Part shown: positions 3,959 through 25,638 of the stretch, in pieces
Position numbering within the stretch: the stretch's first letter is position 1
Layout of the letters: every line of letters starts with the position of its first letter
Source of the DNA: a virus
Length of the DNA: 27,143 nt
IMG/VR virus record: IMGVR_UViG_3300025849_000177
Span: 1 to 27,143 of that record
Direction: 5' to 3' (one strand)
Notes under the pieces: generated by a model
Databases searched by the model: none
Seen by the model: the letters and a program-made list of their open reading frames with translations, nothing else
What the model was told of the DNA's origin: nothing
Made by a program: the position numbers and the translations under genes

Positions 3959-4951
3959 ATGGCGTTACCATCCAGTGGACAGATAAGCCTTAACCAAGTT
4001 AATGTAGAGCTTGGCCTAAGTGGTACAGCACAAATTGGCATGAACGACAGTGCTGTGAGGACTCTATTTGATGATGCTTCTGGACAAATTTCTATGTCTC
4101 AAGGGCATGGTAAGGCTAATGAATTTAGCTTTACGATTAGCTCTAGTACAGAAGAAGCTAATTTATCTTCACTTGCGTCTAGTGCTGGTTGGAATGGAAC
4201 TGCTCCTTTAATATGTAATATAAATTCTGGCGTATATCTATGGAGTGATGACATTACAGTTGGTGGCCTTACAATAAGTGGGTCTTACGCAAACGGCGTT
4301 ACTGTAAATAACAGTGGTTTCATTATGGGCAGGGGTGGACAAAGTGGTGGTGGTTTATCGGGTACATACCAACAAGGTTATCCCGGTGGTGATGCAATTG
4401 AAATATCGACATCAAGCTCAGTGACTATCAATAATAACTCTGGAGCTTACATAGGCGGCGGTGGCGGCGGCGGCGGTGGAGATTGGGGCGGCGGCGGAGC
4501 TGGTGGTGGCGGTGGCGGTGAAAACGGCGAATATGATTATGCATATGGCGGACGAGGCGGTACAATAGGTCAATCTGGGGCTAATGGTAATGACCCTTAC
4601 AATGCAGGACGCCCTATAGCTTACGGCGGCGGTGCAGGCGGCGGCGGTGGTGGCGGCGATACTAATTATCAAGTAAGACGTGGCGCTGGTGGTGGTCGTA
4701 TCTTCCCCGGTACTGGTGGTGCTGGTGGTGGCGGTAGCTCTCTGGCAGGCGGCAATGGTGGTTCTGCTGGAAACGGCGGTACATCTAGGAATGGTTTTGC
4801 TGGTCCGGGCGGCGGCGGTTGGGGTGCTTCTGGTGGTACTGCCTCAGGTGCAACACCTAATGGTCCGGGCGGTGCTGGCGGTAAAGCAATAGAAGACAAC
4901 GGCAGTAGCTACACGCTATCAAACAGTGGCACAATTTACGGAGCAACATAA
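3959..4951 (+). CDS. Polyglycine-rich tail-tip protein or adhesin candidate
   Basis: A 330-residue protein. The N-terminus (MALPSSGQISLNQVNVELG, then SAVRTLF and SGQISMSQGHGKA) matches, from memory, a conserved leader on many marine phage tail proteins. The middle (about 55-160) looks beta-structured. From residue 166 to about 312 it is dominated by glycine runs, the first nine glycines long, separated by short polar segments. Such glycine-rich repeats form polyglycine-II bundles in the distal adhesin gp38 of T4-like phage S16. By analogy this could be the variable receptor-binding tip carried by the preceding fibre. A strong ribosome site (AAGGAGAGG, 3942-3950) precedes the start. The stop overlaps the next start by one base. 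The virion role is well supported; the exact tip function is inferred. Confidence 0.7.
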   Translation: MALPSSGQISLNQVNVELGLSGTAQIGMNDSAVRTLFDDASGQISMSQGHGKANEFSFTISSSTEEANLSSLASSAGWNGTAPLICNINSGVYLWSDDITVGGLTISGSYANGVTVNNSGFIMGRGGQSGGGLSGTYQQGYPGGDAIEISTSSSVTINNNSGAYIGGGGGGGGGDWGGGGAGGGGGGENGEYDYAYGGRGGTIGQSGANGNDPYNAGRPIAYGGGAGGGGGGGDTNYQVRRGAGGGRIFPGTGGAGGGGSSLAGGNGGSAGNGGTSRNGFAGPGGGGWGASGGTASGATPNGPGGAGGKAIEDNGSSYTLSNSGTIYGAT

Positions 4952-13855: not shown

Positions 13856-16800
13856 ATGAACTACTTTGAACAAAAAGAATATATGAAAAATCTTTACAGT
13901 GGTACAGGTTCTTCTTCTGAAAAACAATATGAAACTCTATCTTTTGATCCAGAAGAAACACTGTCTGTAGAAGACATACGAAAAGATTATAAATATTCTC
14001 AACCTATTCGCGACTACATGATTGAACGTATGGGTATAGACTATCAAACTAAATCAGACGAAGATGTAGTAGATGATTTTGTTAAGCATATGCGTTACTT
14101 CAACGCTAACACTGTAATGACTGCAGGTGAAGTTAGATTTGTTACTAAAGCAAACGACAGACAAAAAGAAACAGCACGTAAAGCTTATCAGATATATGAT
14201 CAGCTAGGTAATGTCTTTGTCAATGATGGATTAATGGGTGCAGTAAAGGGTGTAGGCGACTACGTGTTTGCTGCGGCAGCTGATCCTACTAACTACTTGG
14301 GTATACTTACTGGTGGTATAGGTAGAGCTGCAGCTGGTGGTGTTCAAGTAAGTGGTAAGCAAGTTATTAAAGGGGCAGTACGTAAGGCTGGTAGAGACGC
14401 TTTAAGATCAGGAGCTACAAAGAAGGCCGCTAGAGAAGCAGGGCGTAAAGCTGGAAAAGAAGCGGCGGCACGTGCGGCGGCTAGAGGTATGACAGATAAA
14501 AGAACTAAAGGTGTCTATGATAAAGTATCTAAACTTGTTGAAACAGAAGCTAAGAAAGCTATACCTAGAGATGCCATGAAGGCTGCACAAAGAGATTTGT
14601 TTAGAACAGCGGCAACTAAATCTCTATATTCTACTACAGCACTGGACGCTACAGCTGCGGTGTATCAAGATATTGCAAATCAAGAGATTATGCTAGATGT
14701 AGGAGCACAGGAAACGTTCAGTAAAACACAAAGTGCTTTCTCTGCTCTCCTTGGTGGTGTTGCAGGTGGTGCTCAGCTTGTTGCACGTAAGCTAGGTGCT
14801 GGTAAATCAGGACTTGAAGACGCTCGTACAGAGACAGAAAAGTTAGCACAGAATACAATAGATTTGTATGCTCCTATTCTAAAGAAAGCAGATGGACCTG
14901 AGGCGGCTAAGGCTATACGTAAAGCTACAGATAAGTGGAATGCTAAAGTAGCTAAAGGAGATCCTAAGAAAGATATTATAGATGATTCTCAGCTTATAAG
15001 AGAGATTATGTTTGGTGATGTTGAGGGTGAGATAGGAGGTCTTGTTGGGGTGTTCCGATCTAAGGGATACAAGGTAGGTAAAGAAGTTCACATATCTGAC
15101 GTGATGACTAACGTAGCTAACTCACTAACACAGAAAGAACTTGAAGATATTAATATTTCTTTTGCTAAGTATACAGGTTTTAAATTTGGTGATCTTACAG
15201 GTGCACGTGTTAAGCTAGGAGATGTTATGGCAGCACGTTACAGTGAGGCTGGTAAGACTTTGCAGGTAGCATCTCAGGTTAGTAAGACTTTAAACTCTGG
15301 TTTATTAGCAGCTGAGACTAAGATAAAGTTACAGTCAGGTGCTATTAAAGAGGCTGAAGAAGGAAAAGAAATTACACTAGCTGATGGTACAAAGATTAAA
15401 AAGCCTAAGCCACCTGAGCCATTACGTTATGGTCAGTCTGTGTGGAAACGATTACTTGTTTCCTCTCCAGCTACCACAGCATTAAACGTTGCTGGTTTTA
15501 GCCAATACTATGTAGGTCAAACTATTGCTGATCTGTTTAGTTCAACAGCTTTAATGACTAAGGGTCTAGCTCAGAGTGTTACTAATCGTAATGCTGCACA
15601 AGAATCGTTTAGACAAGCACGTGCTCTTAGCTCACTACAGGTACAAAAGATTCGTAACTTGATGGACCCTTATACTACACGTGACGCATACATGAAGTTT
15701 CTTGAAGACCCTGAGAACTTAGATGCACAGAAGGTATTGTTTGAAACTATGGCAGGTGGTGTTGATGCATCAGCTAAACGTTATGGTATGAACCCTGACA
15801 GTAAAGCATTTCGTAATGTAGAAGCTTTTACTAGAGCTATGAATCAGATAACAGGTGTACGCATACAAGACACGTTTACTAAGTCTCAAATGTTTATGAC
15901 TGATATGGATAAGTATCTGAGATTAAAGAGAGGTGTTACTCTTAAGGAAGCTTTATTATCTGATGATATAATTATTGATGATGAGGTTATATCAGGTGCA
16001 CTAGATACTACTCTCAAGTCTGTGTTTGCTAAAGACTATACTACAACAGAACAACCAGAGCTTATTAGAACAGCGGCTAAGTTTGTAGAGACTGTATCTA
16101 ATACACCAGGTCTAGGTACTATACTACCCTTTGGTCGTTTCTTTAATAACGTTGTTGCTACCGCTTATCAATGGGGTCCTTTCTCTGCACCTGAGACACT
16201 ACTAAAACCTATGTATAAACGCATAGTTAAAAAAGAAGGTATGGGTGTTTCAGAAATGGATGCAGCTGCTCGTACAACAGTCGGAGTGGCTGGTTTAATA
16301 CTAGCCATGCAGTATGATGAAGAACGTAGAGATGATGGCTTAGGTGTATATGAGATTAATGTAGGCGGCGGTAAAATTATAGACGCTAAAAACACCTACC
16401 CGTTCTCTGCCTTCCTAGCCGCTGGGCGTATACTAAATATGAAAAGGAACAGTGAGACTATACCACCAGAGCTTATACAAGAGATGGGTACTCAAGTTGC
16501 TGTAGGCCAGTTAGCAAAAGATGCTCAGTTTGGTAATGACTTAAACAACCTACTAGATGTATTGATAAATCAAGATGAGGGTGCACGTGGTGCTTCTATA
16601 GATGCGTTTGCTAAAACTTTTGGTAATCTTACAGCTGGTGTTACTAGACCTTTAGACGCTATCAATAAGGTTGTAGGTTTTGCTATGGGTACAGACACAG
16701 CTAAAGATGTAAGACAGGCTGATGGTTTAGGTTTGTTTACTCAGACTTCTACAAAATACTTTGATAATATTCTTGAAGCATTCATAGGTAAGACAGATAC

Positions 16801-17353
16801 TATTACTGGTGAAGATTTAAAAGTAGCAACAAGAGAGGGCGAGATATATGATGCTAACCCCTTTGCTAGAATCTTTGGTCTAACTATAAAGCAAGGTCGT
16901 ACCGCTACGGAGAAAGCATACTCTATGTCTGAGATGCAAGCCTGGACTGCTAATGAGAGATCTAAACTACCTGCATACGATAGAGCATTCAATGGTATGT
17001 TAGCGCCTATCTTAGAGAGACAGACACAGAGACTTTTAAGAACAGAAAAGTTTATGAAAGCTGACCTACCTAAAAGACGTGGTATGTTAAAGGCTGTATT
17101 ACGTAGTGCTAAGAAACAGATACGTGATAAGTTGGACGATGGTTATACTACAGGTGATAACGTTAAGTTAAGGGCTGCATATAAAGCACAGTCAAGATTC
17201 TCTAAAGAGATAACAACAGAAGCTAAGAAAGTGCTGAAAGAAAAGTTTGGTGTGAGTGGTGAAATAGAAGACTACTCTTTCGCTGAGCTAGATCTATTCA
17301 TAAGTTACAGTGAGCATCTCAAAGATGCCTATGACGAAGCAGGTCAGTTATAA
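13856..17353 (+). CDS. Large internal virion protein (ejectosome-type)
   Basis: The largest complete protein here (1165 residues) and the last gene of the plus-strand block. Near residues 125-165 are small-residue segments including VFAAAADPTNYLGILTGGIGRAAAGG, a pattern I associate with large podovirus internal proteins. Residues 165-250 are rich in Lys, Arg and Ala, as in DNA- or membrane-binding helices. Several semi-hydrophobic stretches occur (LLGGVAGGAQLVA, TVGVAGLILAMQY). Most of the rest is helical. I see no lysozyme or transglycosylase motif, so unlike T7 gp16 it probably leaves wall digestion to the LysM-GH108 enzyme. It starts 2 bp after the previous stop with AAGGG upstream. A terminator hairpin follows the stop by 11 bp. 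Virion location is likely; its detailed role is inferred. Confidence 0.65.
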   Translation: MNYFEQKEYMKNLYSGTGSSSEKQYETLSFDPEETLSVEDIRKDYKYSQPIRDYMIERMGIDYQTKSDEDVVDDFVKHMRYFNANTVMTAGEVRFVTKANDRQKETARKAYQIYDQLGNVFVNDGLMGAVKGVGDYVFAAAADPTNYLGILTGGIGRAAAGGVQVSGKQVIKGAVRKAGRDALRSGATKKAAREAGRKAGKEAAARAAARGMTDKRTKGVYDKVSKLVETEAKKAIPRDAMKAAQRDLFRTAATKSLYSTTALDATAAVYQDIANQEIMLDVGAQETFSKTQSAFSALLGGVAGGAQLVARKLGAGKSGLEDARTETEKLAQNTIDLYAPILKKADGPEAAKAIRKATDKWNAKVAKGDPKKDIIDDSQLIREIMFGDVEGEIGGLVGVFRSKGYKVGKEVHISDVMTNVANSLTQKELEDINISFAKYTGFKFGDLTGARVKLGDVMAARYSEAGKTLQVASQVSKTLNSGLLAAETKIKLQSGAIKEAEEGKEITLADGTKIKKPKPPEPLRYGQSVWKRLLVSSPATTALNVAGFSQYYVGQTIADLFSSTALMTKGLAQSVTNRNAAQESFRQARALSSLQVQKIRNLMDPYTTRDAYMKFLEDPENLDAQKVLFETMAGGVDASAKRYGMNPDSKAFRNVEAFTRAMNQITGVRIQDTFTKSQMFMTDMDKYLRLKRGVTLKEALLSDDIIIDDEVISGALDTTLKSVFAKDYTTTEQPELIRTAAKFVETVSNTPGLGTILPFGRFFNNVVATAYQWGPFSAPETLLKPMYKRIVKKEGMGVSEMDAAARTTVGVAGLILAMQYDEERRDDGLGVYEINVGGGKIIDAKNTYPFSAFLAAGRILNMKRNSETIPPELIQEMGTQVAVGQLAKDAQFGNDLNNLLDVLINQDEGARGASIDAFAKTFGNLTAGVTRPLDAINKVVGFAMGTDTAKDVRQADGLGLFTQTSTKYFDNILEAFIGKTDTITGEDLKVATREGEIYDANPFARIFGLTIKQGRTATEKAYSMSEMQAWTANERSKLPAYDRAFNGMLAPILERQTQRLLRTEKFMKADLPKRRGMLKAVLRSAKKQIRDKLDDGYTTGDNVKLRAAYKAQSRFSKEITTEAKKVLKEKFGVSGEIEDYSFAELDLFISYSEHLKDAYDEAGQL

Positions 17354-17364
17354 ACAAAGAGAGA

Positions 17365-17390
17365 GGGGGCAATTAAGCCCCCTTATTTTA
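17365..17390 (+). terminator. Rho-independent terminator shared by convergent transcripts
   Basis: GGGGGC (17365-17370), loop AATTAA, then GCCCCC (17377-17382), followed by TTATTTTA. This is a perfect 6-bp GC stem with a T-rich tail for the plus strand. It lies in the 29 bp between the stop of the 1165-aa gene and the stop of the facing minus-strand gene. On the minus strand the same stem is followed by a CT-rich tail (TCTCTCTTTGTTT), so it may work both ways, more weakly in that direction. Confidence 0.85.
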
Positions 17391-17589
17391 TTCCGTGTCT
17401 GTCTGCTGCTAATCTAGCCCACATCTTAGCTTCCATAAGTCTCTCCCTAGCCCTCTCCTTTTCCTTACAATCATGTAAGTTATTTAAGATGTAGCTGTTT
17501 AGATTACGCACCTCTTCGTTAAGCCCTGTGTTAAACTTATTACTCTTAGTCTTAACAAAGTTGTCTGCCTCTAGCTCTATCTTCTTCAT
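17383..17589 (-). CDS. Small helical protein, possible Acb2/Tad1-hairpin (anti-CBASS sponge) homologue
   Basis: A 68-residue charged protein, last gene of the minus-strand block. Its start overlaps the previous stop by one base (TAATG). The N-terminus (MKKIELEADNFVKTKSNKFN) is followed by two predicted helices: LNEEVRNLNSYILNNLHD and KERARERLMEAKMWARLAAD. The second helix, with Arg, Ala, Leu, Glu-Ala, then Met-Trp-Ala, recalls the signature helix of the Acb2/Tad1 hairpin family. Those small phage proteins bind the cyclic nucleotides used by CBASS and Thoeris immunity. The length is a little short of the usual Acb2 (about 90 aa). The position at the end of an operon, in a cluster of small accessory genes, also suits an anti-defence gene. 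This is pattern recognition, not a search result; a structural or DNA-binding role remains possible. Confidence 0.45.
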   Translation of the reverse strand: MKKIELEADNFVKTKSNKFNTGLNEEVRNLNSYILNNLHDCKEKERARERLMEAKMWARLAADRHGIK

Positions 17590-18035
17590 TATTTATTTTC
17601 TACTTTCTTTAGGTAGTCTACTGCCTGTTGTACTCCCTCAAGATTATCACTTAACATACCTATACCACGATTACAACTACCACATAGATGCCCTCTATAT
17701 TCACTTGTCTTATGGCAGTGATCTAAGTGTAGCTTCTGACCTTTAAGTTCTTTAGAATCTACACCACAGCATTCACATTTACCAAAAGCTTTGTGTCCAT
17801 GTATTTTCCTAAGAATTCTTTGTATAGCCTCAGCTTTAATACAACAGGCTTTACACTTATTTTGAAGATGTTTATTGGAAGTGCCATCCTTTGATATATA
17901 AGAAAATGCTATATAAAAATTTTCTTCTGTTTCTGGAAATACTTCTTCACAAACTGTACACTGTTTATCTCTAACATCATTAGGTGTGTCTTCTCTTTCC
18001 ATATCTTCAAACAAGTTAAACTTTAACTGCATCAT
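17589..18035 (-). CDS. Endonuclease VII-like Zn-binding nuclease (HNH/beta-beta-alpha metal fold)
   Basis: I start it at ATG 18035, which overlaps the previous gene's stop (ATGA); a longer frame to 18059 has no reason for use. That gives 148 residues. Two Cys pairs lie in the N-terminal half (C26/C29 and C61/C64). The catalytic core reads KCECCG (C87, C90), then KLHLDHCHKTSEYRGHLCGSC with DHCH at 105-108 and C118/C121, then NRGIGMLSDN. This is the T4 endonuclease VII pattern: a Zn knuckle flanking a DH-containing metal-binding active site. Such enzymes cut branched DNA, but the same fold occurs in free-standing homing endonucleases. The genome also has a T7-type endonuclease I, so a second resolvase would be redundant. 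A mobile HNH gene is therefore a real alternative. Confidence 0.8.
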   Translation of the reverse strand: MMQLKFNLFEDMEREDTPNDVRDKQCTVCEEVFPETEENFYIAFSYISKDGTSNKHLQNKCKACCIKAEAIQRILRKIHGHKAFGKCECCGVDSKELKGQKLHLDHCHKTSEYRGHLCGSCNRGIGMLSDNLEGVQQAVDYLKKVENK

Positions 18036-18232
18036 GTATCCTCTGGTATAGCTGTACACATAGGTAATATAAAAACCTTCTCAGTAAGCTCTTCTGGTAA
18101 GTATGTGTATACGCTTGTCATTGCACGTGCTGCACCATCAATACAGCTACCGTATGTGTCATACAGGATAGGTGAGGCTCTTATTGTTGGCTCCTCACCT
18201 ACCATGTAAGCTATTAGTACGAGAACATACAC
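18032..18232 (-). CDS. Small hypothetical protein with hydrophobic N-terminus and two Cys
   Basis: A 66-residue frame beginning GTG; its first base is the last base of the upstream stop (TAGTG), and a purine-rich GAAGAGAAAGAA site lies just before. It opens MYVLVLIAYMVGEEP, a short hydrophobic start that could be an uncleaved anchor or weak signal. The remainder carries YGSCIDGAARAM and VFILPMCTAIPED, so two Cys could pair if exported. Similar tiny Cys-containing proteins occur in marine podoviruses from memory, without known role. Tight overlaps on both sides (TAGTG and ATGA) argue that it is real. Confidence 0.6.
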   Translation of the reverse strand: MYVLVLIAYMVGEEPTIRASPILYDTYGSCIDGAARAMTSVYTYLPEELTEKVFILPMCTAIPEDT

Positions 18233-18384
18233 TATTCTTTCTCTTCAGAATCAAGTTTATCTTTGACGTAATCTACTCCCTGTATTACCTTAGGTTCTAC
18301 ATAATCATAAGTAGAACTACCTACATCAGTTGCTACTTCAATAGCCGCAACACCTACAAAAAACATTACTAAAACTTCAACCAT
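18232..18384 (-). CDS. 50-residue hypothetical protein with N-terminal membrane segment
   Basis: A short frame from ATG 18384 to TAG 18232-18234. It begins MVEVLVMFFVGVAAIEVATD, whose first 17 residues are hydrophobic enough to span or attach to a membrane. The rest is charged and ends KDKLDSEEKE. Its start lies inside the end of the glutaredoxin gene (8-base overlap), and its last base is the first base of the next start. These couplings, plus codon use like its neighbours, make it a likely gene. The function is unknown. Confidence 0.55.
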   Translation of the reverse strand: MVEVLVMFFVGVAAIEVATDVGSSTYDYVEPKVIQGVDYVKDKLDSEEKE

Positions 18385-18604
18385 CTAATTGTTCCTTTAG
18401 TTCATTGTAGCCACCAACATGGTGACCTTCATTGTCCCAGATTTGGGGTACAGTTTTCATACCTGCCTGTCGCATCAATGTCAACAACCACCTACTACTA
18501 ACTGTATCAACAGAGTAAGGCATAAACGCTATGCCTTTCTCCTCTAGTAAGTTCTTTGCTTTGTTACAGAACCCACACTTACTTGTTCCTAGTACTACAT
18601 ACAT
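18377..18604 (-). CDS. Glutaredoxin
   Basis: A 75-residue thioredoxin-fold protein. It has the dithiol active site CGFC at residues 10-13 on the first strand, the cis-proline motif TVPQIW at 51-56 and the C-terminal GGYNEL at 64-69 that contacts glutathione in the family. It is close to the minimum size of a phage glutaredoxin. It starts 3 bp after the nrdJ stop, so it is very probably made with the reductase. Its likely job is to re-reduce the reductase C-terminal cysteine pair using glutathione or a host reductase. It is the only redox carrier gene in the window. Confidence 0.9.
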   Translation of the reverse strand: MYVVLGTSKCGFCNKAKNLLEEKGIAFMPYSVDTVSSRWLLTLMRQAGMKTVPQIWDNEGHHVGGYNELKEQLDG

Positions 18605-18607
18605 AGT

Positions 18608-20527
18608 TTATACTAGGTCTACAATTTCACAAGAGTCTCCAGAGCAAGCCATTGTTTGCATAGACACTGTGTTATCCTCACTCTCGTAGTCTGACAACTC
18701 TGACCAATCAATACTTGTAGGCATCTCTGAGAGTAGTGCTTTGTATGCTTTCTTATCTATCTCTTGATAAGGTGCTTGCTGGTATGAGTGATCTGAGTGT
18801 GGCAAAAATGACACACCTGACATCTCATCAAAGTGTTGATACACAAATGCACCAACATCCATCCACTCTTCATCGCGTACTGTTATAGTAACAGATGGCT
18901 TATGCTCACACCAATGCCGTTGATATGTAAGCCACAGATCTAGTTGCTCTACAGCAGTCATATCATTACGTGTAACTGCTTTCTCTGGTGACTTAACTGG
19001 GAAGCTAAACACAACTGTAGAGTCAGGCTTCATAACGCACGGCTCATTAGGTACACCTCTATCAATCATAAACTGTGTTAGAGGGTCTTTAATGTCACCA
19101 CGTACAGTACGAATATAGTAAGGGCTGTGTCTCGCATGGATTCCACTGGCGCTATCTACAAGCTGTGAAACCGTGCCACTTGGTTTTACGCAACTGATAG
19201 CAGTACTAGCAGGTATACCTAGTAGGTTAGCCCAATCCCTATTAGTTTCTACAGCAACAGAACGTAGGTGCTCTAGTGTCTTCTTCAAACCCTTGTTCTT
19301 TTGTGTCATTAATGGGTTATCCATAATACCTGTCATAGACACACCAAGTAATCTCTCTTCTGCTGTATTGTTTTGCCATACTTTACGTAGGTAAGGAAAC
19401 TTAATCAGCATTGATTGTATTGTACCTAAGATAGTAGCGAGTCTAACCTTACGCTCAAGATCTTCTAGTGTATCAGTAGCACGTACTACACACTCCGTTA
19501 AGTTACAGAATTGGTAAGGGCGTAATATTATCTCGCTGCACGGGTTGCAGCCGAACTCATAATTAGGATCACGTCTACCATTCTTAGCGGCCTGTACCTT
19601 AGATGCTTGTCTGTTAAAGATACCACGCTCACCAGACTTAGACTCAACCAGAGACAACCATTCACGCATGAATGTTTCCATATCTGGCTTCTCACTATAT
19701 GCTACAGAGTTATTAGCTAGTGCTCTATGACCTGCAGTTTCCCACCACTGTCCTGACTTAGCGTGACGCATACGATCATCAGATAAATTACTCAATGAAA
19801 TCATAGCACTACGGCGTACACCACCTACAACAACTATCTGACCTATGAAACACATAAGGTCGTGACATTCCATAGAGCTAAGCTTACGTCCTTGTGCGCC
19901 CTTGAAAGTAGCTACAGCAAAGTTAAACAGTTCTACTAACGGCGCTGGTCCTGATGCTCTACCACCAAACGTTTTAAGTCTTGCACCTGCAGGACGAACC
20001 TGAGACACATCCCACTTAGGTATTTCACCAGCCCATAGGAGTGCTAGAACTTGACGGAAGCCCTTAGCCCAACCTTCTTTGCTGTCCTTAACGACAACGA
20101 TAGACTCACTGTCGAAAAGATCAGGAACTTCTGGCAACTTTTTGATGAACTGTCTCTCGACAGAGAAGCCAACACCCGTACCACAGAGAAGGATATACAT
20201 AGCTTCATCGAAGGACTTAGGGTCATCTACGGGTAAGTAACTACAATTATATCCTGCTGTATTATCGCGATCTAAAGCTGGACCAGCAGTCATCATTGCC
20301 CTCATACTAGGCATTATTTCTTGACCCAGTATAGCCTGTTCAAGATCATACACTTCATTGTTATTTACAATTCTCTCTACTTCATTACCCAGCGCCTTAC
20401 GAACTACATTATCCATGTAGCGTTCCACTGTTTCTCCCCAAGACTCACGCCCTTTGCCATCAAAGTACTTAGCGTAGCGTGACTTGTGTATGAATGCTTG
20501 ATAGTCTGTTGGTAGTTGGTTACTCAT
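18608..20527 (-). CDS. nrdJ: Adenosylcobalamin-dependent (class II, monomeric) ribonucleoside-triphosphate reductase
   Basis: A 639-residue enzyme that makes deoxynucleotides for phage DNA synthesis, using a radical derived from coenzyme B12. All expected residues of the Lactobacillus-type monomeric enzyme are visible. C95 (YNCSY) pairs with C341. C330 is the thiyl-radical cysteine in CNPCSE, 11 residues before C341, the same spacing as C408/C419 in the Lactobacillus enzyme. E332 is the catalytic Glu. C628 and C633 form the C-terminal CxxxxC shuttle pair. It is about 100 residues shorter than the 739-residue Lactobacillus protein. The start overlaps the mazG stop (ATGA) and glutaredoxin follows 3 bp after the stop. 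The reaction needs no oxygen or partner subunit, but it does need cobalamin from the host or the environment. Confidence 0.95.
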   Translation of the reverse strand: MSNQLPTDYQAFIHKSRYAKYFDGKGRESWGETVERYMDNVVRKALGNEVERIVNNNEVYDLEQAILGQEIMPSMRAMMTAGPALDRDNTAGYNCSYLPVDDPKSFDEAMYILLCGTGVGFSVERQFIKKLPEVPDLFDSESIVVVKDSKEGWAKGFRQVLALLWAGEIPKWDVSQVRPAGARLKTFGGRASGPAPLVELFNFAVATFKGAQGRKLSSMECHDLMCFIGQIVVVGGVRRSAMISLSNLSDDRMRHAKSGQWWETAGHRALANNSVAYSEKPDMETFMREWLSLVESKSGERGIFNRQASKVQAAKNGRRDPNYEFGCNPCSEIILRPYQFCNLTECVVRATDTLEDLERKVRLATILGTIQSMLIKFPYLRKVWQNNTAEERLLGVSMTGIMDNPLMTQKNKGLKKTLEHLRSVAVETNRDWANLLGIPASTAISCVKPSGTVSQLVDSASGIHARHSPYYIRTVRGDIKDPLTQFMIDRGVPNEPCVMKPDSTVVFSFPVKSPEKAVTRNDMTAVEQLDLWLTYQRHWCEHKPSVTITVRDEEWMDVGAFVYQHFDEMSGVSFLPHSDHSYQQAPYQEIDKKAYKALLSEMPTSIDWSELSDYESEDNTVSMQTMACSGDSCEIVDLV

Positions 20528-23589: not shown

Positions 23590-25638
23590 TCATACATCAA
23601 CTGTGTCAAGCCAGTTTGATCCTATTTTTGCTTCAAGTAGTAGTGGTACATTCATCTTTACATTGTACGTTTTTTCTACAAGATCGTTTATATTATCGTT
23701 AAGTGATTCTATTATATCAATAACTTGTTGTTCTTCATCAGGGTGTATGTCAATTACCATACTGTCGTGTACTGAATTAACTACGACAGAGTTGTATGGT
23801 TGTAACAATTCGTGAAGTTCGTTCAACACAATAGGTACTACATCACCTGTTGCAAACCCTTGTACTGGGTAGTTCTTAATCATTGTGAAGTGGCTTGGCA
23901 TACCATTGTCCCTGCGTTTTACATTAGGAAAAGCATACTGTCGCCCTGACTTATTAGTTATCTTATTAAACCGTAATGCCTCATCGCCTAACTCTTTATG
24001 CCATGCAGCAATACCCTCATACTTCTCAATAAAATGTTTATAGTAAGCGGCTTCAGCCTTAGATCTTCCATACCCTGTAGCTCCGAAGAGGGGGGCGAAT
24101 GTATGTGCCTTGGCATCCTGGCGAGAAGTCTTCTGCCCTGCATCTGTAATAACTTTAGCAGTGTAACTATGCACATCAAACCCTGTGTCTATCTCTTTCA
24201 TAGCAGTCTCATCTTGCGCTAAGAATGCAGCAGTACGAAACTCAAGTTGAGCAAAGTCAGCTTCCATAATCTTACCATTTTCCCATCGTGAAACAAAGAC
24301 TTTCTTCACAGGAAACGTACCACCTCTGGGCATGTTTTGCATGTTAGGATTGCGTCCACTGAAACGTCCAGTAGCTGTTATGTGCTGAGTTAAACTTACA
24401 TGTAAGAACCCATCATGCTTAGTGTAGTTTGATATACCCTCAACAAAAGAACTTAGGTAGCTACTAATAGCAGACAAACGTTTAAGATCATTAAGAAAAG
24501 ACTCAGCCTCTGCCATGTTATTATTTCTTGCAGTAGCCGCTAAGATCTGTAGGTTATCTTTACTTGTACTAAAACCATTAGCACTAATCCATTTCTTATT
24601 GGGTGCTGTAAATTTTAGACCAGCAACTTGTTTTGTTTCTTTAAGCTGAAACCCTCGCGTGTCACAGTCCTTACACTTGTTAGGTCTAGCATACTTTGTA
24701 CCATCCTTCTTTACTTTATACGTCTTGCCTTGTCCCTCACAGGTAGGGCATGTAAATGCTTCTGTTCTATATACACGTTTAGAGTTTGCTTTAACAGCAT
24801 CTTTATATTCATCTACTGTAGAGGTAAACTCAAACAGATCAGCCCACTCTTTCTTATTAACCATACGCAGAGAGAATACAACCTGAGACATCTGCTCTGG
24901 ACTACTGAGATTTATAGGTGTGTCACCCATAAGCTGACGAACTTTCTTCTGTAGCCTACTTTCAATCTCTGCCTTCTCTTGTTCAAACTGTAGTCTTACC
25001 TCGTCAAGGGCAGATCTATCCACCCTGATTCCTGACATGTACATTCTGGTAAGGGTTTTACAGGTGATGAAGGTGGTATCTCTAATGACTTTGAGACCTG
25101 TAGATTCGGGCTTGGCGTAGTCTGCTTCGATATTATGGAACAACCAGCTAGTTGAAAGCAGATCACACCTGAGATAAAAGCTAAGCTCATCCAACGGTAT
25201 CTCATTTGTAGTATAGCCTTCTTTAAAATATCTTTTAAGTGTATCATCTTTCTGTACCTCTAGGTTTCTGCGTTCAGCACAAGCACCTAAGCTTAATGGA
25301 GTGCGTTGCCCTCTATCAAGTATATACTCTGCTAACATTGTATCATAGATCAAGCCATCATACTTGAAGCCTGACTCCCACAACCACATCATATCGTGTT
25401 GTGCGTTGTGCATTATGAGTAGTGTTGTTAAGTCTAATATATCCTGGACTAGCTTATGCCCAGCGCCTGACGTATCCTTTGCTTCATCGTGGTCTATGTT
25501 TACAATGTGTAGTTCATCATGGTTGTCTGCATTAACCATACCAACTTGGACTAAATGATTGTCAATCTCAAACGGGTCCATGTGATCTTTGCCGTTGCGT
25601 TTTGTTGTGCTATTCTCAACGTCTAATACTAATCTCAT
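23590..25638 (-). CDS. polA: Family-A DNA polymerase with 3'-5' exonuclease and DnaJ-like zinc finger insert
   Basis: The replicative polymerase, 682 residues. The exonuclease domain has D6/E8 (LVLDVEN), D82 (HNAQHDMMW) and Y155 with D158 (FYLRCDL). Between it and the polymerase core, residues 297-325 hold CPTCEGQGK and CKDCDTRG, two Cys pairs like one zinc site of the DnaJ central domain. The polymerase part has TATGRFSGRNPNMQN, motif A (EADFAQLEFR, D461), motif B (R506, K510, F514, F518) and motif C (VHDS, H624 and D625). There is no 5' nuclease domain. F514 is the position of E. coli Phe762. F518 replaces the usual Tyr766. The zinc finger fusion is reported for HMO-2011-type phages. The start is 8 bp after the helicase stop. 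Confidence 0.95.
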   Translation of the reverse strand: MRLVLDVENSTTKRNGKDHMDPFEIDNHLVQVGMVNADNHDELHIVNIDHDEAKDTSGAGHKLVQDILDLTTLLIMHNAQHDMMWLWESGFKYDGLIYDTMLAEYILDRGQRTPLSLGACAERRNLEVQKDDTLKRYFKEGYTTNEIPLDELSFYLRCDLLSTSWLFHNIEADYAKPESTGLKVIRDTTFITCKTLTRMYMSGIRVDRSALDEVRLQFEQEKAEIESRLQKKVRQLMGDTPINLSSPEQMSQVVFSLRMVNKKEWADLFEFTSTVDEYKDAVKANSKRVYRTEAFTCPTCEGQGKTYKVKKDGTKYARPNKCKDCDTRGFQLKETKQVAGLKFTAPNKKWISANGFSTSKDNLQILAATARNNNMAEAESFLNDLKRLSAISSYLSSFVEGISNYTKHDGFLHVSLTQHITATGRFSGRNPNMQNMPRGGTFPVKKVFVSRWENGKIMEADFAQLEFRTAAFLAQDETAMKEIDTGFDVHSYTAKVITDAGQKTSRQDAKAHTFAPLFGATGYGRSKAEAAYYKHFIEKYEGIAAWHKELGDEALRFNKITNKSGRQYAFPNVKRRDNGMPSHFTMIKNYPVQGFATGDVVPIVLNELHELLQPYNSVVVNSVHDSMVIDIHPDEEQQVIDIIESLNDNINDLVEKTYNVKMNVPLLLEAKIGSNWLDTVDV

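Follow-up and report, generated by a model that had tools for sequence, protein, structure and literature searches.

The last gene of the leftward replication operon in a 27,143-base IMG/VR virus record (here called the window, at its full length) encodes a protein of 68 residues, which probably represents a diverged branch of Acb2/Tad1 helical-hairpin sponges in which the ligand pocket is altered. Acb2/Tad1 sponges are phage proteins that soak up the alarm molecules of the host. The basis for this reading is computed, and comprises the ancestry of the hairpin, a model of the monomer, the residues that pack the hexamer, a fixed position at the operon end, and purifying selection. The features concerned are listed below.

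17383..17589, minus strand: Acb2/Tad1-hairpin-like gene, 68 aa (ORF, profile, fold-model and reciprocal-search evidence)
17479..17583, minus strand: helix 1 codons, residues 3–37 (AlphaFold model and conservation)
17398..17469, minus strand: helix 2 codons, residues 41–64, the Acb2/Tad1 signature helix with A47, L51, M56, W57 and A58 (AlphaFold model, profile alignment)
17386..17397, minus strand: codons of the C-terminal tail H-G-I-K, residues 65–68 (conservation across 36 sequences)
17363..17384, both strands: terminator-like hairpin, GGGGGC-AATTAA-GCCCCC, touching the stop codon of the sponge-like gene
17589..18059, minus strand: endonuclease VII gene, 156 aa, directly upstream of the 68-residue gene (PF02945, 1.2e-14)
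18032..18604, minus strand: tiny operon genes of 66 aa (18032–18232) and 50 aa (18232–18384), and glutaredoxin, 75 aa (18377–18604)
18608..20527, minus strand: class II (B12-dependent) ribonucleotide reductase, same operon
13856..17353, plus strand: convergent 1165-aa gene of the structural module, which adjoins the sponge-like gene in relatives as well

The gene, its operon and its phage group

The open reading frame runs from an ATG at 17589 to a TAA at 17385–17383, and its product, MKKIELEADNFVKTKSNKFNTGLNEEVRNLNSYILNNLHDCKEKERARERLMEAKMWARLAADRHGIK, is highly charged and contains the last helix quoted in the initial annotation. Searches of IMG/VR returned 80 relatives with identities down to 31%, nearly all of them 67–68 residues long, and the same length and the same place at the operon end were found in 83 loci. 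Pairwise dN/dS was 0.07–0.34, mostly 0.1–0.3 (all calculable pairs with dS of at least 0.3), and the gene is, as judged from these sequences, under purifying selection. The constancy of length and place together with the low dN/dS indicates that the open reading frame is a genuine gene and not a chance one. In one relative (IMG/VR 3300017753_001956, 4001–4203), the gene is frameshifted about 16 codons in, which reflects a natural loss of the kind seen in phages under pressure from Panoptes, or else an error of assembly.

The stop codon of the endonuclease VII gene (TAA) shares one nucleotide with the ATG of the 68-residue gene (TAATG), and this overlap suggests translational coupling. The upstream part of the operon holds the tiny genes, glutaredoxin, the class II ribonucleotide reductase, MazG, a family A DNA polymerase and a helicase, the latter two assigned by reading the sequence. 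The position at the end of a replication operon, as initially annotated, is kept across all 83 loci. The accompanying statement that the gene follows tiny overlapping genes holds for the operon, which contains such genes, but not for the direct upstream neighbour, which is the longer endonuclease VII gene. The nearest recognised upstream gene was endonuclease VII in 34 of the 83 loci, PhoH in 16 and GIY-YIG in 3, while in 29 only ribonucleotide reductase was recognised; a long convergent gene was recognised downstream in 50. In the window this convergent gene ends at 17353, and the terminator-like hairpin at 17363–17384 separates the two convergent operons (three terminator-like sites in the region versus 1.0 expected).

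The named phages nearest in ribonucleotide reductase are the roseophages CRP-13, CRP-207, CRP-603 and CRP-2 (82–89% identity), and the window phage and its roseophage relatives belong to the HMO-2011-type group (PMC9038755). The DNA polymerase of the operon (23590–25638, minus strand) contains two CxxCxGxG-like repeats (CPTCEGQG and CKDCDTRG) between its exonuclease and polymerase parts, which correspond to the partial DnaJ insert that has been described as characteristic of HMO-2011-type phages (PMC9038755). HMO-2011-type polymerase genes (54% and 77% identity) were also seen on contigs binned into Euryarchaeota and Flavobacteriaceae MAGs; these are probably mis-binned phage contigs. CRP-207, CRP-603 and CRP-2 carry the 68-residue gene in the same place (66%, 46% and 43% identity, respectively), and all three copies are labelled hypothetical in GenBank. 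CRP-13, CRP-345, CRP-1, HMO-2011 and CRP-235 are without it; where it would lie, ahead of the same kind of convergent gene, their operons end in other small unannotated genes (73–87 aa) or in MazG. These operon-end genes gave no match to the Acb2/Tad1 hairpin family PF24729, and the small ones among them are possibly other counter-defence genes. A search of one genome per species, covering 84,980 bacterial species, found no bacterial copy of the 68-residue gene, so that a link to a host through a prophage was not possible.

Relationship to the Acb2/Tad1 hairpin family

The sole Pfam match of the window protein is PF24729 (14.5 bits; E value 0.043), for which the curated gathering cut-off is 27 bits. 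The family matches 11 of 14 relatives (best E value 0.0012), although no single relative reaches the gathering score, the top value being 18.8 bits in a six-frame search. In a wider set of 36 members, 18 have PF24729 as their best family, and every other family hits three at most. When whole phage records were searched, the PF24729 signal was confined to the 68-residue gene, appearing in eight of ten records that contain it and in no record from five related phages that lack it. The scores below threshold point to a distant homologue forming a new branch, rather than to membership of the curated family.

A bridge is provided by PHROG 1454, which includes actinophage hairpin proteins and matches the window protein at 2.2e-5 and every one of the 14 relatives (best 1.8e-6). 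In PF24729, two of its members, LoneWolf gp49 and Ibantik gp60, reach 68 and 64 bits, respectively. For comparison, the proven-type sponges PaP2 p26 (the sequence of PDB: 8h2j) and RB69 Vs.4 score 66 and 65 bits. The actinophage proteins are likewise short and single-domain, of similar length, and align with the window protein over residues 21–64 as a gap-free hairpin with 36% identity to the aligned member. A conserved A-x(6)-A/V-x-M/F-W-A/S helix is common to them and to the window family. In contrast, the actinophage hairpins begin with a short helix and a loop, with RFxFH...EKR, where the window protein has a single helix (residues 3–37), and their LPxGREK turn becomes LHxCxEKE.

The initial annotation had guessed at an Acb2/Tad1 hairpin and proposed a profile comparison as a check. 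By hhalign, the profile of the window family scored 35.9 against 40 actinophage-type hairpins and 30.7 against six Acb2 proteins (Vs.4/p26). With 100 plain column shuffles and 100 hydrophobicity-preserving shuffles, the mean scores were 10–11 (sd about 2) and the maxima 19.4 and 17.8, respectively, and the reversed profile scored 9.6 and 13.8. A reciprocal hmmsearch, in which the window-family HMM was run on 6,258 stop-to-stop ORFs of loci containing Acb2/Tad1 genes, placed Acb2/Tad1 genes at all of ranks 1–78, and they made up 83 of the 86 hits at E values up to 10. The guess stands as one of remote homology, borne out by tests each of which might have gone against it: the family profile, the PHROG 1454 bridge, the shuffled controls, the reciprocal search and a viral fold library (see below). 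Neither phmmer with the window protein nor hmmsearch with the 36-sequence profile found a match among PDB sequences, and NCBIfam held nothing relevant for the window protein, nor for proven Acb2.

Taken as profile evidence, these results indicate that the hairpin of the 68-residue protein shares ancestry with T4 Vs.4 (Acb2), PaP2 p26 and the actinophage Acb2/Tad1-hairpin proteins. It was also described as an unusually small version, which does not agree with the sizes of known members, beginning at about 65 residues; small accepted PF24729 members include those of phages 7t3 and ZX1 (74 and 78 aa) and one of approximately 63–67 aa (54.9 bits) in a Yoonia-family genome (L191). The layout around PaP2 p26 (983–1264) is the same as that of the window gene, since p26, too, closes its operon, with MazG three genes before it and a long convergent gene facing it. 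On a human faecal phage contig, an unannotated hairpin gene (415–576; 32.8 bits in PF24729) lies just before an ORF reading like an anaerobic ribonucleotide reductase.

Predicted fold, retained residues and alternative readings

An AlphaFold model of the monomer, based on the 36-sequence alignment, predicts with confidence (mean pLDDT 92.9) two long antiparallel helices, residues 3–37 and 41–64, in agreement with the two-helix polypeptide initially described. The separate short N-terminal helix and loop of the Acb2 type (T4 Vs.4/PaMx33) are not present in this model, helix 3–37 being continuous, whereas in a bona fide PF24729 member modelled in the same way a short helix (3–9) is separated by a loop from the next (18–41), and a further helix follows at 46–68. 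Among the top 26 matches of a BFVD fold search, 11 were named Acb2/Tad1 hairpin; this search uses sequence besides shape, and is therefore not independent of the profile evidence. In a fold search of the PDB, T4 Vs.4 with cGAMP (7uq2) was at rank 11 (Z 6.9, rmsd 2.9, 65 aligned residues) amid unrelated hairpins, and the same search with a certain PF24729 member, run as a calibration, retrieved no Acb2/Tad1 protein. Foldseek against the PDB gave no Acb2/Tad1 protein among the 50 matches listed for the window protein, nor one for the certain member.

Tad1 has an N-terminal beta-sheet (PMC12043709). The model of the window protein contains no beta-strand, and identity with Tad1 was rejected for this reason; the proposed role against Thoeris, which had rested on Tad1, is left unsupported. 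Only the C-terminal two-helix hairpin would be common to the window protein and Tad1, which were compared here by fold; PF24729 covers Acb2 and Tad1 by name.

The hexamer of T4 Vs.4 is built by L29, A66, A73 and A77, mutation of the interface residues A66, A73 and A77 abolishes it, and the contacts to cGAMP are made by Y8, H11, K23, R79 and F82 (PMC10097602). The last-helix signature is common to the window protein and T4 Vs.4/PaP2 p26 (KLKEASMWACRA versus RLMEAKMWARLA; hhalign probability 77.6%), although the turn of the window protein is shorter and the N-terminal motif GY-x(3)-S/T is missing. In the signature-helix alignment, the small residues that pack the hexamer interface are retained, A66, A73 and A77 corresponding to A47 (34/36), A/V54 (35/36) and A/S58 (35/36). 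In contrast, the residues of the cyclic-dinucleotide pocket are mostly not kept. The position of R79 is occupied by L60 in the clade of the window protein and by Arg in 26 of 36 relatives; that of F82 is D63 in the window protein and is never aromatic; H11 has no conserved counterpart, and there is no conserved basic residue in the region of K23. Equivalents of F82 and R79 are missing from the window clade, and the conserved C-terminal tail, HGIK, is also different. The counterpart of Y8 is F11 by one alignment method and F19 by the other, and because the two disagree no claim is built on the N-terminal mapping. Invariant across the 36 sequences are E5, E7, A8, F11, F19, L38, W57, G66 and K68, with Lys or Arg always at position 15. 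The pocket residues, together with the Pfam score under threshold, set the protein beside the Acb2/Tad1 hairpin family, as a new branch, rather than within Acb2 itself.

That the likeness reflects helix composition only, in an unrelated two-helix protein, is very improbable. Helical hairpins do look alike, the PDB fold matches are mostly to unrelated hairpins and the Pfam score is under threshold, but the shuffled, reversed-profile and reciprocal-search controls argue against chance, as does the frequency with which PF24729 is the best family. We also regard as improbable, though less so, a canonical Acb2, in which 3',3'-cGAMP and further dinucleotides would be bound in the manner of T4 Vs.4, F11 standing in for Y8 and H65 or K68 for F82 and R79. 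It would agree with the clearly common signature helix, with the Arg found at position 60 in most relatives and with the alignment that puts the invariant F11 on Y8/Y11; it is opposed by the second alignment, by the absence of conserved counterparts of H11 and K23, and by a model in which the first helix shows no break.

A homologous hairpin could instead have changed its job, keeping the oligomeric scaffold without binding a signalling nucleotide and acting as a small regulator, as a nuclease partner coupled to endonuclease VII, or as an accessory of nucleotide metabolism. The lost pocket residues and the acidic invariant N-terminus (E5/E7) would fit such a change, as would the strong purifying selection and the permanent place as the closing gene of an operon for nucleotide metabolism and replication, which is not a variable cargo island. 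However, the upstream gene varies (endonuclease VII, PhoH, GIY-YIG and others) while the 68-residue gene stays, so that it is not the fixed partner of one enzyme, and proven-type Acb2 genes are also found among nucleotide-metabolism genes, as PaP2 p26 illustrates. We judge the changed job to be rather unlikely, and retain the sponge with an altered pocket as the preferred reading.

Proposed action, hosts and significance

As a sponge with an altered pocket, the 68-residue protein would assemble as an interlocked helical oligomer, by analogy a hexamer, and would sequester, without degrading it, a nucleotide second messenger of the infected marine alphaproteobacterial host; with the messenger sequestered, the host effector would not be triggered. 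The binding mode of the ligand probably differs from that in T4 Vs.4, because the residues for dinucleotide stacking and for the salt bridge are lost and the N-terminal helix-loop is now a straight helix. The likeliest pocket would be the open end of the hairpin, where invariant E5, E7 and F11 and K/R15 may face invariant G66 and K68. Judged from helix pairing and not from coordinates, the N-terminal invariant set and G66/K68 would meet at this open end, which by the same reasoning would be the location of the dinucleotide site in Vs.4. The other likeliest site would be the trimer channel, which in Acb2 binds cyclic trinucleotides.

We put forward, as a tentative extension, a distinct sponge branch whose pocket has been rebuilt for a messenger other than the known cyclic dinucleotides (e.g., a trinucleotide only, or an undescribed signal) and which has become fixed in a very abundant marine phage group. 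Panoptes-type guards sense Acb2; if the extension is true, the loss of dinucleotide binding would also let the rebuilt-pocket branch avoid such guards.

Plausible hosts, i.e., members of a family that holds a Yoonia MAG, carry CBASS: a SMODS synthase was found in 14 of the 198 genomes sampled from this family. Over-threshold PF24729 genes of their own were present in nine of the 198, and two genomes had both a SMODS nucleotide synthase and such a hairpin gene.

Phages of the HMO-2011 type rank with the most abundant marine phage groups known (PMC9038755). A literature search found no publication naming both HMO-2011 phages and Acb2 among the matches listed, nor any report of a counter-defence gene of the Acb2/Tad1 kind in phages of this type. 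If these phages do conserve a sponge-like gene, this would point to nucleotide-signalling immunity as a regular pressure in the surface ocean. With its scaffold kept and its pocket not, the branch would be a natural test of ligand change in hairpin sponges, and the 68-residue protein itself would be a ready bait for the signal used by marine alphaproteobacteria.
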